In this document: positions 37,428 to 42,535 of the stretch, piece by piece
How positions within the stretch are numbered: position 1 is the first letter of the stretch
How the letters are laid out: every line of letters begins with the position of its first letter
Assembly: GCA_029573725.1 (NCBI GenBank)
Contig: JAKQDQ010000178.1
Coordinates: 248,001 to 312,000, forward strand
Length of the DNA stretch: 64,000 nucleotides
Reading direction: 5' to 3'
Source of the DNA: Verrucomicrobiota bacterium
GTDB taxonomy: Bacteria > Verrucomicrobiota > Verrucomicrobiia > Limisphaerales > JADLHS01
The notes under the pieces: model-generated
What the model was told of the DNA's origin: nothing
The model's database searches: none
Seen by the model: the letters and a program-made list of their open reading frames with translations, nothing else
Translations under genes and position numbers: made by a program

Positions 37428-37455
37428 TTGACAGGCTGCCAGGAGCTGATACTGT
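37428..37455 (+). promoter_or_regulatory. lexA promoter
   Basis: A perfect -35 TTGACA (37428-37433) and, after 16 bp, TACTGT (37450-37455) as -10, which is also part of the SOS box. Expected transcription start about 37462, leaving almost no leader before the ATG at 37469, so the mRNA may be near-leaderless. Confidence 0.7.
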
Positions 37456-37470
37456 TTAGACGAACAGTAT
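37449..37470. promoter_or_regulatory. LexA operator (SOS box) overlapping the lexA start codon
   Basis: Perfect inverted repeat ATACTGTT (37449-37456), 6-bp spacer, AACAGTAT (37463-37470). The core is TACTG-N10-CAGTA, the same as the E. coli SOS consensus. It covers the -10 box and the first two bases of the lexA ATG, so LexA binding should block both polymerase entry and initiation. Confidence 0.85.
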
Positions 37471-38092
37471 GATGAAGTTGACCGTGAAACAACAGCGCGT
37501 TCTGGATTTCATCCATAAATGCCAGCAAACGCAGGGCGTGACGCCGACGCACCAGGAAATCGCCGCGCATTTCGGCTTTCGCAGTCCAAACGCGGCGACG
37601 GAACACTTGCGTTTGATCCGGCGCAAAGGCTTCCTGGAATCCGTTCCCCGCAAGGCGCGCGCTCTGCGCGTCACGTCGGCGCTGCTGAAACTGCGGGGCC
37701 GGCTTGCGGACATTCCACTTTACGGAACGATTCCCGCCGGCTTTTCGGCCGATCGCGAGCAGCAACCGGATGGTTGCGTCACCGTGGACGTGGCCAGCAT
37801 CGGCTTCAAACCGACGCGCAACACATTTGCGCTTCGCGTTGCGGGTGATTCCATGATCGGCAGACATATTTGCGACGGTGACATTGCCGTATTTGAACAC
37901 GGTGCGGAGCCGCGCCCGGGGCAGATTGTGGCGGCGCTGATTGATCGCCAGAGCACCCTCAAAACTTTTGTCGTTAAAAATGGCCGACCGTTTCTGAAGG
38001 CTGAAAACCCGAAATATCCCGATCTGATTCCCTCGGAGGAACTGGTGATTCAAGGCGTGTTTCGCGCGTTGATCCGGCAGACAAACGAATGA
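37469..38092 (+). CDS. lexA: LexA repressor
   Basis: The SOS-response repressor, cleaving itself when RecA is activated. 207 residues: an N-terminal winged helix (TPTHQEIAAHFGFRSPNAATEHLRLIRRKGFLE, with the recognition helix around 36-50), the Ala90-Gly91 cleavage bond in TIPAGFSAD, Ser128 of the catalytic dyad in RVAGDSMIGRHI and Lys165 in STLKTFVVK. All residues needed for autocleavage are present. Its own operator lies at the start codon, indicating autoregulation. A second in-frame ATG at 37472 is possible. The fused polymerase gene follows after 54 bp without a visible terminator, so the two are probably one SOS-regulated transcript. Confidence 0.95.
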   Translation: MMKLTVKQQRVLDFIHKCQQTQGVTPTHQEIAAHFGFRSPNAATEHLRLIRRKGFLESVPRKARALRVTSALLKLRGRLADIPLYGTIPAGFSADREQQPDGCVTVDVASIGFKPTRNTFALRVAGDSMIGRHICDGDIAVFEHGAEPRPGQIVAALIDRQSTLKTFVVKNGRPFLKAENPKYPDLIPSEELVIQGVFRALIRQTNE

Positions 38093-38146
38093 AGGAGAGG
38101 CCGGTTTTGCCCCCGGACGCACCGGCCGGCTGGAGCACGTTGCCGC

Positions 38147-41100
38147 ATGTCGTTTCCCCGCACCATTGTGCATCTGGATGCCGACGCTTTTTTCGCCGCC
38201 GTGGAGCAGGCGGCGGACGTCAAACTGCGCGGCAAGCCCGTGGCGGTGGGTGGCGGCGCGCGCGGCATCATCGCTTCAGCCTCCTATGAAGCCCGCCGGT
38301 GGGGGGTTTACACGCCCATGCCCGCCGCGCGCGCGCGCAAGCTTTGCCCGAAACTTATTGTGCTGCCGGGTGACTTCGAGCGCTACGAACAATTTTCGCA
38401 CTGGATGTTCGGTTACTGTTATGACTTCACGCCGGACGTGGAACAGACTTCGATTGACGAGGGTTACTTCGACCTGACGGGGCATCGCCGCCAGGCGCCG
38501 GTGGAAATTGCCCGGACCATCCGCAAGGCCATTGGCCAACGCCTCAAAATCACCGTCAGCGAGGGTATTGCCACGAACAAACTGGTCAGCGCCATCGCTT
38601 CCAAACTCCATAAACCCGGCGCGTTTCAAGTCGTTCCCCCGGGCGAGGAGGCGGTGTTTTTGCAACCACTGTCCAGTCAATGGTTGCCGGGCATCGGTCC
38701 CCAAACCGGGGCGCGTCTGTGTGCCGCCGGGCTGGCAACGATTGGCCAGGTTGCGGGCACGCCTTTGGAAATGTTGGAGTTGTTGCTGGGCGCGTCCGCG
38801 CGGTGCATCCGCCAGTTTGCGCACGGCATTGATGAACGTCCGCTTGTGCCGAAGCGTGATCCGCAAAAGACGTTCAGCCGGCAGGAGACGTTTGCCGCCG
38901 ACATCACGGACGAGGAATACGTCGAGGCGACGCTGCGCCACATGGCCGACCGGTTGTTTGCCCGGGTGCGGGAGGAAGGCCGCAGCATCCGCACCCTCAC
39001 GGTCAGGGTGCGTTACAACGACCGGGACGAAGATCAGGTGAGTGAGAGCCTGCGTGAACCGACGGATCTTGAAACAGACATCTACGGACGCCTGCGCATC
39101 ATGCTGCGGGCAGCCTGGCGGCGGCGGGTCAGTCTGCGGTTGGTGGCGCTCAAACTGGGCAATGTTTATGACGGTCGGTTTCGTGCCGAGCTGCCTCTGG
39201 AGGTTTCCGTTCAGCGACGCGAAGCAGCAGGCCGGCTGGCCGGGGCGATTGATGCGCTCCGGCGCGCGCGCGGATACGCAACCATTTTACGCGGACACGA
39301 TCTGCGTCTGCGCCTGCCGCCGCGGGCTCCGACGGCGCATCCGGCGGTGCCGGGCGAAGGCTCGCGGGGGATTCAAATCCTGTCCCGCCCGCGTCCGGTT
39401 GCCGGCTATGTTCCGCTGCGAACGCACAGCCACTACTCGTTCCTGGACTCGGTGTTGTCGCCTGCGGCCATTGTGCAACTGGCCCGGCAGCACGGTTTGC
39501 CGGCCGTGGCGCTGACGGATTCCGGCAATCTGCACGGTGCGGTGGAATTTGTGCAGGCCGCCAAACAACAGGGGGTGAAACCGGTTCTTGGTGTCGAGTT
39601 GAACGTGCGCGGCCAACCGCTGCTGCTCTACGTTGCATCGGCGCGCGGATATCATCAGCTTTGCCAACTGCTCTCGCACCCGGCGGCGGCGCCTCCCGGC
39701 CATGGAGAGGCGTCCGTGGTCAGCCAGCCGCGCCGGGCGTTGCGTTGCGAGGAACTGGCCGGGCGGACGGAGGGGTTGATCGCCGTCGGCAGCGATCCGG
39801 CCCTGGCTGAGTTGTTCCCGCAGCGTTTTTATCAGCTCGCCACCGGGGGACAGCGCGCCGGCAAATTTCCCGGCGTTGTCGGGCCCGCCATCCGGTACGC
39901 CATGCCCGGCGACCGGCAGCGATACGACATCGTGCAAAGCATTCGCACGCGGACGCTTTTGCGCCAGCCGCACCCTGAAAAAGATCTGGCCGGACAGTTT
40001 CATTTTCGCACTCCGGAGGAAATGGCCCGCGCCGCTTACGAGCATCCGGATTGGTTGCAGCATACGCATGAAATTGCCGCGCGTTGCCAGTTTGAGCTGC
40101 CTTTCGGCCAGCCGCAGTTCCCCGCCTACGTTCCTCCGGACGGGACCTCCCCGGGTGAATTTCTGCGACAACTGGTATGGCGGGGGTTGCGCGAACGTTA
40201 CGGCGCGCGCGCCGCTCGCCACCGTTCCCAGGCGCGGGAGGAACTCGACATCATCAACGCCATAGGGTACGCGGAATATTTCCTGGTTACCTGGGATTTG
40301 TTGCAGGCCTGCCGCCAACGCGGCATCTCCTGGATCACGCGGGGCAGCGCGGCGGACAGCCTGGTTTGCTACGGCCTGGGCATCAGCGGCGTTTGTCCGG
40401 TTCGTTTCAACCTCTACTTCCGCCGTTTTCTCAATCGTGAGCGCATGGCGCGGCACAAGCTGCCGGACATTGACATTGATTTTCCACACGACCAGAAGGA
40501 CGCCGTCATCAATCTCATCTTCGCCAAATACGGTCCGGCGCACTGTGCGGTGGTGGGCGGCTTTGCGACGTTTCAAGCCCGCAGCGCCTTTGCCGAGGTG
40601 GCCAAGGTGCTGGGGGTGGCGGAGCACATGGTGCGGCGGTTCACGGAGCATTTCCCGTGGAGTTTCCGTGGCTGTTGGAAATCGGACGTGGAAACGCCTG
40701 GTGGCGGGATGCGGTTGATTGACAAACTCGAAGCCAGCCCGGTGAACCGCTTCCTGCCGTTGCGCGATGAACCGTACCGCACCGCGCTGCTCATGGCCGG
40801 GGGGCTCGATGGCGTGCCGCGCCATCCCAAAATGCATCCCTGCGGCCTCGTTCTCTCGCGGCAGCCACTGCACGAACTGATGCCCACGTTCATGGCCCAG
40901 AAAGGTTACGCCACCACACACTTCGACATGGATGCCGTGGAGGCGGTCGGCCTGGTAAAAATGGACATTCTCGCGCAAGGCGGGCTGGCGGTGATGCGTG
41001 ATGTTCAGACGCTGCTGGCACCGCGCGGCCTGGTCGTGGATCTGGAAGCGTGCGTCGCACGGCGGCAATCCGATGGTTGTGTGCGGTGGGGCGACCCCCG

Positions 41101-42535
41101 GGCCGCCGAGCCGTGGCAGGATCCGCGCGTGTGGGCAATGATCGCCGCCGGCGACGCCCGCGCCGTGCATCATATCGAATCGCCCGCCATGATCGGGTTG
41201 TGCCGCAGGTGCAACGTGCGCGACATTGACGGGCTGGTGGCCATCGTCAGTGTGATCCGCCCCGGCGCGGCCAATGAAGGCAAAAAGCAATCGTTCGCCC
41301 GGCGTTATCAGGGATTGGAACCGATCACCTGCCCGCATCCGGATCTGGCATCCTGTCTGCGCAGCACCTTCGGCCTGGTCGTGTATGAGGAGCACATTCT
41401 GCAAATCTGCGAAATCTTTGCCGGACTGCCGCCGGGTCGGGGCGACGTTTTGCGGCGCGCCTTGAACAAACAGGACCCTGCCGTCATTGCCGGATTCCAA
41501 ACCGAATTCACCGCCGCCGCAAGGCAGCGTGGGCACACCCCGGAAACGATCGCGGAAGTCTGGCGTCTGATCACCGGGTTTGCCGGTTACGCCTTCTGCA
41601 AGGCGCACTCGGCCGCTTACGGCGTGGAAGCCTACCAGTCCGCCTGGTTGAAGCATTATTTCCCGGCGGAATTCATGGCCGCGGTGCTGACCAACGGCAA
41701 GGGTTTCTATGATCCATTGGTTTACGTTCTCGAATGCCACCGGCTGGGATTGAAATTTTTGCCGCCTTCCATCAATGAACCCGGTCCGATGTTTGCGGTG
41801 CATGGCCGCGCCATTCGTGTGCCGCTGGTTCGCGCGAAAGGGCTGACCGATCGCACCCGCCAGCGCCTGCTGGCCGAGCGCGCGCGCCGCGCCTTCGCCT
41901 CTTTGGCGGACTTTTGTCATCGTGTGCAACCGTTGCCGGAAGAATTGGAAACCATGATCCGCGCGGGCGGGTTCGATGAATTTGGCCAGCCCCGCACCCG
42001 GCAATTTTGGGAGGCACAACATTGGCGCCGGATCTGCAGCCGTTCGGATGTGTCGGACCAGGAATGGCTGTTGCCGCCCCCGGGCCTGGCACCATTTCCG
42101 GCAATGCCTTTGCGTGAACCGACCCGCCGGGAACGGCTTGAAAGTGAAAATGAATTGTTCGGCTATCCGGTCAGCGGCCATCCGCTGGAACGCTTCGCGG
42201 ACATTGCGTGGGAAACCTATTGTCCGGTGGCGCAATTACGGCAACACCCCGGCGCAACAGTCGTCGCTTGCGGATTGGTGATCGAGCAGCGCACCTACCA
42301 TCAGGTCACTGGTGAGCCCATGAAATTTCTTACCCTTGCCGACTGGACGGGCATGGTTGAGACCGAGCTGTTCGCGCCCGCCTATCGCCGCCATGGTCTG
42401 GCCACGGTTCGTTATCCGGTTCTCGAAGTCACGGCCGCCGTTGAGCCATTCGAAAACGGACGCGGCTTTTCATTGCGTGTGCTGCACGCCGGACCGCCCC
42501 GCCGCCGGCCGGACCGCGGCGCCGCGCGCCGGTGA
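38147..42535 (+). CDS. Fused DNA polymerase: Y-family DinB (Pol IV) plus C-family DnaE2/DnaE polymerase
   Basis: A single uninterrupted 1462-residue frame. Residues 1 to about 400 are a Y-family translesion polymerase: HLDADAFFAAVEQ (Asp11, Asp13), SYEARRWGVYTPMPAARARKLCP, the catalytic SIDEGYFDLTG (Asp104, Glu105), GIATNKLVSAIASKLHKP, a HhH (LPGIGPQTGARLCAAGL) and the little finger (FSRQETFAADI). After a short linker, residues 420-1462 are a C-family polymerase. It has a PHP domain opening THSHYSFLDS (427-435), GSAADSLVCYGLGIS, the catalytic PDIDIDF (Asp774, 776, 778), KMDILAQGG (Asp940) and a C-terminal OB fold. Both active sites look intact. Length and OB-fold position fit DnaE2. It follows lexA at 54 bp and should be SOS induced. 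Confidence 0.9.
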   Translation: MSFPRTIVHLDADAFFAAVEQAADVKLRGKPVAVGGGARGIIASASYEARRWGVYTPMPAARARKLCPKLIVLPGDFERYEQFSHWMFGYCYDFTPDVEQTSIDEGYFDLTGHRRQAPVEIARTIRKAIGQRLKITVSEGIATNKLVSAIASKLHKPGAFQVVPPGEEAVFLQPLSSQWLPGIGPQTGARLCAAGLATIGQVAGTPLEMLELLLGASARCIRQFAHGIDERPLVPKRDPQKTFSRQETFAADITDEEYVEATLRHMADRLFARVREEGRSIRTLTVRVRYNDRDEDQVSESLREPTDLETDIYGRLRIMLRAAWRRRVSLRLVALKLGNVYDGRFRAELPLEVSVQRREAAGRLAGAIDALRRARGYATILRGHDLRLRLPPRAPTAHPAVPGEGSRGIQILSRPRPVAGYVPLRTHSHYSFLDSVLSPAAIVQLARQHGLPAVALTDSGNLHGAVEFVQAAKQQGVKPVLGVELNVRGQPLLLYVASARGYHQLCQLLSHPAAAPPGHGEASVVSQPRRALRCEELAGRTEGLIAVGSDPALAELFPQRFYQLATGGQRAGKFPGVVGPAIRYAMPGDRQRYDIVQSIRTRTLLRQPHPEKDLAGQFHFRTPEEMARAAYEHPDWLQHTHEIAARCQFELPFGQPQFPAYVPPDGTSPGEFLRQLVWRGLRERYGARAARHRSQAREELDIINAIGYAEYFLVTWDLLQACRQRGISWITRGSAADSLVCYGLGISGVCPVRFNLYFRRFLNRERMARHKLPDIDIDFPHDQKDAVINLIFAKYGPAHCAVVGGFATFQARSAFAEVAKVLGVAEHMVRRFTEHFPWSFRGCWKSDVETPGGGMRLIDKLEASPVNRFLPLRDEPYRTALLMAGGLDGVPRHPKMHPCGLVLSRQPLHELMPTFMAQKGYATTHFDMDAVEAVGLVKMDILAQGGLAVMRDVQTLLAPRGLVVDLEACVARRQSDGCVRWGDPRAAEPWQDPRVWAMIAAGDARAVHHIESPAMIGLCRRCNVRDIDGLVAIVSVIRPGAANEGKKQSFARRYQGLEPITCPHPDLASCLRSTFGLVVYEEHILQICEIFAGLPPGRGDVLRRALNKQDPAVIAGFQTEFTAAARQRGHTPETIAEVWRLITGFAGYAFCKAHSAAYGVEAYQSAWLKHYFPAEFMAAVLTNGKGFYDPLVYVLECHRLGLKFLPPSINEPGPMFAVHGRAIRVPLVRAKGLTDRTRQRLLAERARRAFASLADFCHRVQPLPEELETMIRAGGFDEFGQPRTRQFWEAQHWRRICSRSDVSDQEWLLPPPGLAPFPAMPLREPTRRERLESENELFGYPVSGHPLERFADIAWETYCPVAQLRQHPGATVVACGLVIEQRTYHQVTGEPMKFLTLADWTGMVETELFAPAYRRHGLATVRYPVLEVTAAVEPFENGRGFSLRVLHAGPPRRRPDRGAARR

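Follow-up and report, generated by a model that had tools for sequence, protein, structure and literature searches.

A predicted LexA operator on the lexA start codon and a candidate self-contained SOS switch for a fused two-polymerase gene in Limisphaerales

Why does a LexA box of Escherichia coli appearance lie across the start codon of a verrucomicrobial lexA gene, and what does the repressor that would bind it control? The question is raised by a 64,000-nucleotide stretch of contig JAKQDQ010000178.1 (assembly GCA_029573725.1, Verrucomicrobiota, order Limisphaerales), hereinafter the window, on the forward strand of which all its features discussed below are located. Broad bacterial groups are said to keep stable LexA motifs, of which 17 have been reported for bacteria as a whole, and the published model of motif change invokes duplication, divergence and loss (PMC8565304). 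Behind the present question stands the more general one of how a repressor can change its motif without losing its function.

The palindrome noticed in the first-pass annotation is real. It consists of ATACTGTT-TAGACG-AACAGTAT, 22 bp at positions 37449-37470, and encompasses TACTG-N10-CAGTA, of which the window holds one copy; we predict that the complete element, ATACTGTTTAGACGAACAGTAT (37449..37470), is a LexA operator, given that the letters of such boxes co-vary with the recognition helix of LexA. The final A of its 20-bp core, TACTGTTTAGACGAACAGTA (37450-37469), also opens the lexA ATG (37469-37471), and the first six bases of that core, TACTGT (37450-37455), are the likely -10 element, 16 bp downstream of a -35 element, TTGACA (37428..37433); among 113 lexA loci from the order, 88 have TTGAC at 25-34 bp 5' of the centre of the box. 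Because of this placement, the lexA transcript would be expected to carry a leader of some 6-7 nt, that is, to be nearly leaderless. Within the interval from -30 to +10, palindromes with at least 7 of 10 paired positions are present at 70% of 151 lexA starts compared with 10% of dinucleotide shuffles, and those with at least 8 paired positions at 50% compared with 1.8%, an excess that argues against a chance origin of the start-codon palindrome.

The lexA gene (37469..38092) encodes a protein of 207 amino acids that contains both the winged-helix DNA-binding domain (PF01726) and the S24 self-cleaving domain (PF00717) and passes the TIGR00498 cut-off (138.7 bits against 110.95). The cleavage site A84-G85 and the catalytic residues S119 and K156 (E. 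coli numbering, here and below) are all in place, and the same four residues A84, G85, S119 and K156 are kept in 99-100 of 100 relatives. The recognition helix reads SPNAATEH, compared with SPNAAEEH in E. coli, so that P40, N41, A42 and E45 are common to both. The nearest relatives, from 81% identity down, belong to Verrucomicrobia subdivision 3 or Limisphaerales; the matches in the PDB, E. coli LexA structures among them, are far more distant, and include 3JSO, a complex of LexA with DNA. This is the only PF01726 protein of its genome. A second S24 protein (L084) was considered as another LexA and rejected on account of its resemblance to signal peptidase I.

A gap of 54 bp separates the end of lexA at 38092 from the start of the co-oriented dinB::dnaE gene (38147..42535, 1462 amino acids), as the first-pass annotation had it and the reading-frame coordinates confirm. 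Judging from Pfam domains, NCBIfam and motifs, the fusion protein begins with a Y-family polymerase, which has the DAD and SIDE motifs, and continues with a PHP/DnaE part that has a PDIDIDF motif, both halves thus keeping their active-site motifs. As the genome encodes a separate DnaE (L337), the fused polymerase is an additional one. We found no publication on such a Y-family/DnaE fusion in a literature search. The fused gene lies 3' of lexA in 84 of the 152 distinct lexA loci that we collected and examined, which makes the earlier suggestion of its co-regulation with lexA likely. With lexA directly upstream and in the same orientation, the locus has the layout of a lexA-regulated translesion polymerase operon, and would work like one.

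We propose, with a probability of about 0.78, that lexA and dinB::dnaE form a self-contained LexA switch, with the palindrome as its autoregulatory operator, that this LexA has few or no other strong targets, and that letters 3, 4, 5 and 7 of the box are read by LexA residues 45, 42, 41 and 40, respectively. On this proposal, a LexA dimer bound at the palindrome, which takes in the -10 element and runs into the lexA ATG, would cover both and repress lexA along with the dinB::dnaE gene behind it; RecA filaments would stimulate self-cleavage of LexA and so release the whole operon; and the joint induction of lexA and dinB::dnaE would lead to translesion synthesis by the fused enzyme.

Across the order, a palindrome lies near the start codon of 113 lexA genes, 95 of which have the box centre 8-14 bp 5' of that codon. 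The 87 symmetric boxes, a set that may include a few loci of uncertain placement, fall into 19 different core pentamers (letters 3-7), among them CTGTT, CTGTA, CTATC, GTGAA, CTGTC, CCGTA, CTACT, CTATA and CTGCT. The distance from the -35 element to the box centre is 30 bp where residue 41 is R or K (21 of 27 loci with TTGAC) and mostly 32-33 or 27-28 bp where it is not, from which we infer that the part of the box serving as -10 shifts with the letters. In two lexA genes with the helix SQTAAVNH (L300, L323), the palindrome is TAGTGTTCA-TGAACAC(T/C)A, with a centre shorter than in the usual register.

What, then, sets the letters of the box? When the roughly 2000 residue/letter pairs are ranked by excess mutual information, 40-7, 41-5, 42-4 and 45-3 come out on top, as if the recognition helix were read in order against the half-site; in E. 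coli LexA, the DNA contacts are made by S39, N41, A42, E44 and E45 (PMC3091678). Counted in half-sites, R or K at residue 41 goes with A at letter 5 (47/48 and 21/24), and N, T, S or Y with G (44/48, 38/40, 16/16 and 12/12); A at residue 42 goes with T at letter 4 (149/152) and T with C (20/22); and at letter 3, D and C at residue 45 go with C (70/74 and 53/54) and K with G (10/10). The association survives in phylogenetically independent contrasts on a tree built from the LexA C-terminal domain only: all 20 contrasts between 41R/K and other residues show a difference at letter 5, letter 4 follows 42T in 7 of 8, and letter 3 follows 45G/N/K in 6 of 6. A stricter set of boxes gave the same picture. 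Letters 3-8 are predicted correctly in 81% of cases from nearest neighbours in the recognition helix, in 61% from nearest neighbours in the C-terminal domain and in 55% at random. In held-out lexA genes from elsewhere in the phylum, the rules for residues 42 and 41 hold well (10/10, 53/66, 6/8 and 52/68, the first being C4 with 42T, the third A5 with 41R/K and the fourth G5 with other residues at 41). The letter-3 rule for residue 45 failed outside the order as scored, with 15 of 38, a score partly due to one clade whose boxes were not located. This covariation of box letters with DNA-contacting residues supports the autoregulation of lexA that had been suggested for the window. The box there resembles that of E. 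coli because its LexA has the E. coli residues P40, N41, A42 and E45, and in an order with at least 19 cores the designation "gammaproteobacterial", used in the first pass, is misleading.

How could a repressor and its operator have changed together? Among close relatives, some LexA pairs are discordant: identity amounts to 86-95% in the C-terminal domain and falls to 42-54% in the DNA-binding domain, and the boxes are different. At the DNA level, identity in these pairs is about 45-55% from upstream of the gene to about codon 66 and 70-90% from there through the C-terminal domain, and onwards through dinB where both members of a pair have it; the window shows the same break, less sharp, against L004 and L006. 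The break at the domain boundary delimits, in the window, a DNA-binding domain of about residues 1-66 (37469..37667) that we propose to be swapped with the operator. Distances correlate better within domains (0.46-0.58) than between them (0.21-0.33), with a dip at residues 54-70. The N-terminal and C-terminal LexA trees strongly reject each other. Such topological conflict was discarded as evidence of exchange, given that the two halves of the C-terminal domain also reject each other (relative loss 0.12-0.14 compared with 0.14-0.20), and the case for exchange therefore rests on the identity profiles, the distance correlations and the synonymous codons.

We conclude that the operator probably travels together with the LexA DNA-binding domain, the two making up a lock-and-key module. 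For the order as a whole, we regard it as moderately likely that operator, core promoter and DNA-binding domain form a contiguous module of about 230 bp that is swapped by recombination, the cleavage domain and the polymerase staying in place, so that orthogonal, private SOS switches arise that can coexist in one genome, their specificity governed by the 40-7/41-5/42-4/45-3 code. We propose that so compact a module is possible because the box sits on the start codon. The reading that competes with the exchange part, and with that part only, is drift by point mutation, with the DNA-binding domain under diversifying selection; such drift would account for both the covariation and the low N-terminal identity with no exchange of modules. 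The published model is of this kind, with co-drift following gene duplication (PMC8565304), and some close pairs, such as L023/L025, differ by few residues; nevertheless, drift is hard to reconcile with the abruptness of the break in DNA identity at the domain boundary. Moreover, synonymous-codon identity in the discordant pairs is lower in the N-terminal half than in the C-terminal half (0.42 against 0.54), whereas it is even in concordant pairs (0.66 and 0.65) and in distant pairs (0.38 and 0.39), and a reciprocal case exists within a single genome (G161), where L012 and L148 have a DNA identity of 80-92% up to bp 240 and of about 70% beyond it. We regard drift as the less likely account.

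Several genomes harbour lexA copies with differing helices and boxes (for example, G187, G138, G143, G280, G095, G019 and G012), which would fit selection for switches without cross-talk; near-identical copies occur in G107 and G209. Some copies that lack the polymerase fusion adjoin defence-like genes (L005:3834-4673, L049:3661-6609, L135:2-919 and 1322-2332), encoding type IIG-like methylases, a DruE/DpdJ-like DEAD helicase and a PDC-S60-like protein, and may couple defence to DNA damage. Limisphaerales-type lexA genes were also found in records titled Akkermansia muciniphila or Klebsiella pneumoniae (L006, L012, L022, L026); these names, given to metagenome-assembled genomes, look wrong.

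So is the window box one site among many in a canonical SOS response, with LexA in control of a genome-wide DNA-damage regulon? An intact, cleavable LexA that is the sole PF01726 protein of the genome would befit such a role, as would the global regulatory role of E. coli LexA, whose contact residues are almost identical. The genome argues otherwise. The first-pass annotation had proposed to look for a regulon by means of the box, an idea to be abandoned if repair genes carried no further copies and DNA damage did not induce the operon. The sequence side of this turns out against a regulon: in the 4.28-Mb genome (an assembly of 187 contigs, 96% complete), TACTG-N10-CAGTA has a single exact copy, a scan with TACTGTT-N6-AACAGTA found no site with one mismatch, and recA has no box upstream, its best match being 7 of 14 letters. 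Two sites with two mismatches were set aside, one (L069) at the nusA promoter, where its TACGGT would serve as -10, and the other (L070) inside open reading frames. Scans that allow so few mismatches miss weak operators. When relatives were scanned for their own version of the lexA box, at up to 2 mismatches in 16 letters, the sites lay directly at lexA, the two in G209 being those of its two lexA genes, with the one exception of a further 1-mismatch site in G252. A regulon is detectable by such a search, as shown by the positive control, a Verrucomicrobiaceae genome (G294) with 13 exact TGTTC-N4-GAACA sites and none for the reversed pattern. Furthermore, of 154 good genomes in the order, no more than 73 encode a PF01726 LexA, some of them in several copies, as would be expected of an accessory module more than of a housekeeping regulator; with about half of these genomes devoid of it, recA may be regulated by something else. 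Thus, a canonical regulon is improbable, and the LexA of the window appears, from the genome scan, to act strongly at few other sites, if at any. Acquisition of box and LexA from a gammaproteobacterium, to which the exact TACTG-N10-CAGTA and the residues P40, N41, A42 and E45 might point, can hardly be entertained when the nearest relatives of this LexA are from Limisphaerales, the PDB LexA proteins are much more distant, and its own clade contains a series of intermediate boxes and helices.

The proposed self-contained switch would have implications beyond this locus. A single order holds at least 19 core motifs together with matching repressors and a testable recognition code, and the data add a lock-and-key swap, as a proposed mechanism, to the model of duplication, divergence and loss. 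The same diversity of LexA and operator, here linked to a fused two-polymerase enzyme, would supply many natural, mutually independent LexA/operator pairs as genetic switches.

Among known systems, the closest in appearance is LexA of E. coli and its SOS box (CTGT-N8-ACAG), with which the window shares the register, the letters TACTGT, the residues P40, N41, A42 and E45, and the self-cleavage site and catalytic residues; unlike that system, the window box overlaps the start codon, has no detectable regulon and would drive a dinB::dnaE fusion, and T44 replaces E44. In Verrucomicrobia, the LexA motif is said, in work attributed to Erill in 2016, to be TGTTC-N4-GAACA. The window comes from the same phylum and its box has the same register (T4 G5 T6 T7 C8), with a right half that reads TACTGTTC; however, no exact copy of that motif is present in the window, the lexA box being one mismatch away (TGTTT-N4-GAACA) and so outside the group, and whereas the published motif marks a regulon of several sites (13 in G294), the window box has no detectable regulon and belongs to an order with at least 19 cores.

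In operon layout, the counterparts are the lexA2-imuA-imuB-imuC(dnaE2) cassettes, for instance in Pseudomonas putida, where lexA is co-transcribed with the translesion polymerase operon under its control (PMC5261740), and the lexA operons with polymerase of Geobacter, in which LexA does not bind recA (PMC6511836). Neither the fusion nor the exchange of modules was found described in these two papers (PMC5261740, PMC6511836). The window likewise joins lexA to a translesion polymerase operon; unlike in the cassettes, lexA is followed by one fused gene that has the active-site motifs of both the Y and the C family, its Y-family part with DAD and SIDE, and by no imuA or imuB directly downstream, so that it is not an imuA-imuB-dnaE2 cassette. 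The diversity of operators and the apparent exchange of DNA-binding domains set it apart from both.

With respect to specificity, the variant LexA408, carrying P40A, N41S and A42S, reportedly reads CCGT. This laboratory LexA of altered DNA specificity (PMC9614035) is a precedent for a specificity change based in the helix, and the natural 42T proteins of the order have CCGT as well; unlike this single engineered case, the variation seen here arose in nature and also involves letters 3, 5 and 7. With respect to exchange, the immunity modules of lambdoid phages are a parallel, in which a repressor and its cognate operators are exchanged together as a specificity unit. Here, by contrast, the setting is the autoregulation of a chromosomal LexA through one operator, and the C-terminal cleavage domain stays in place.
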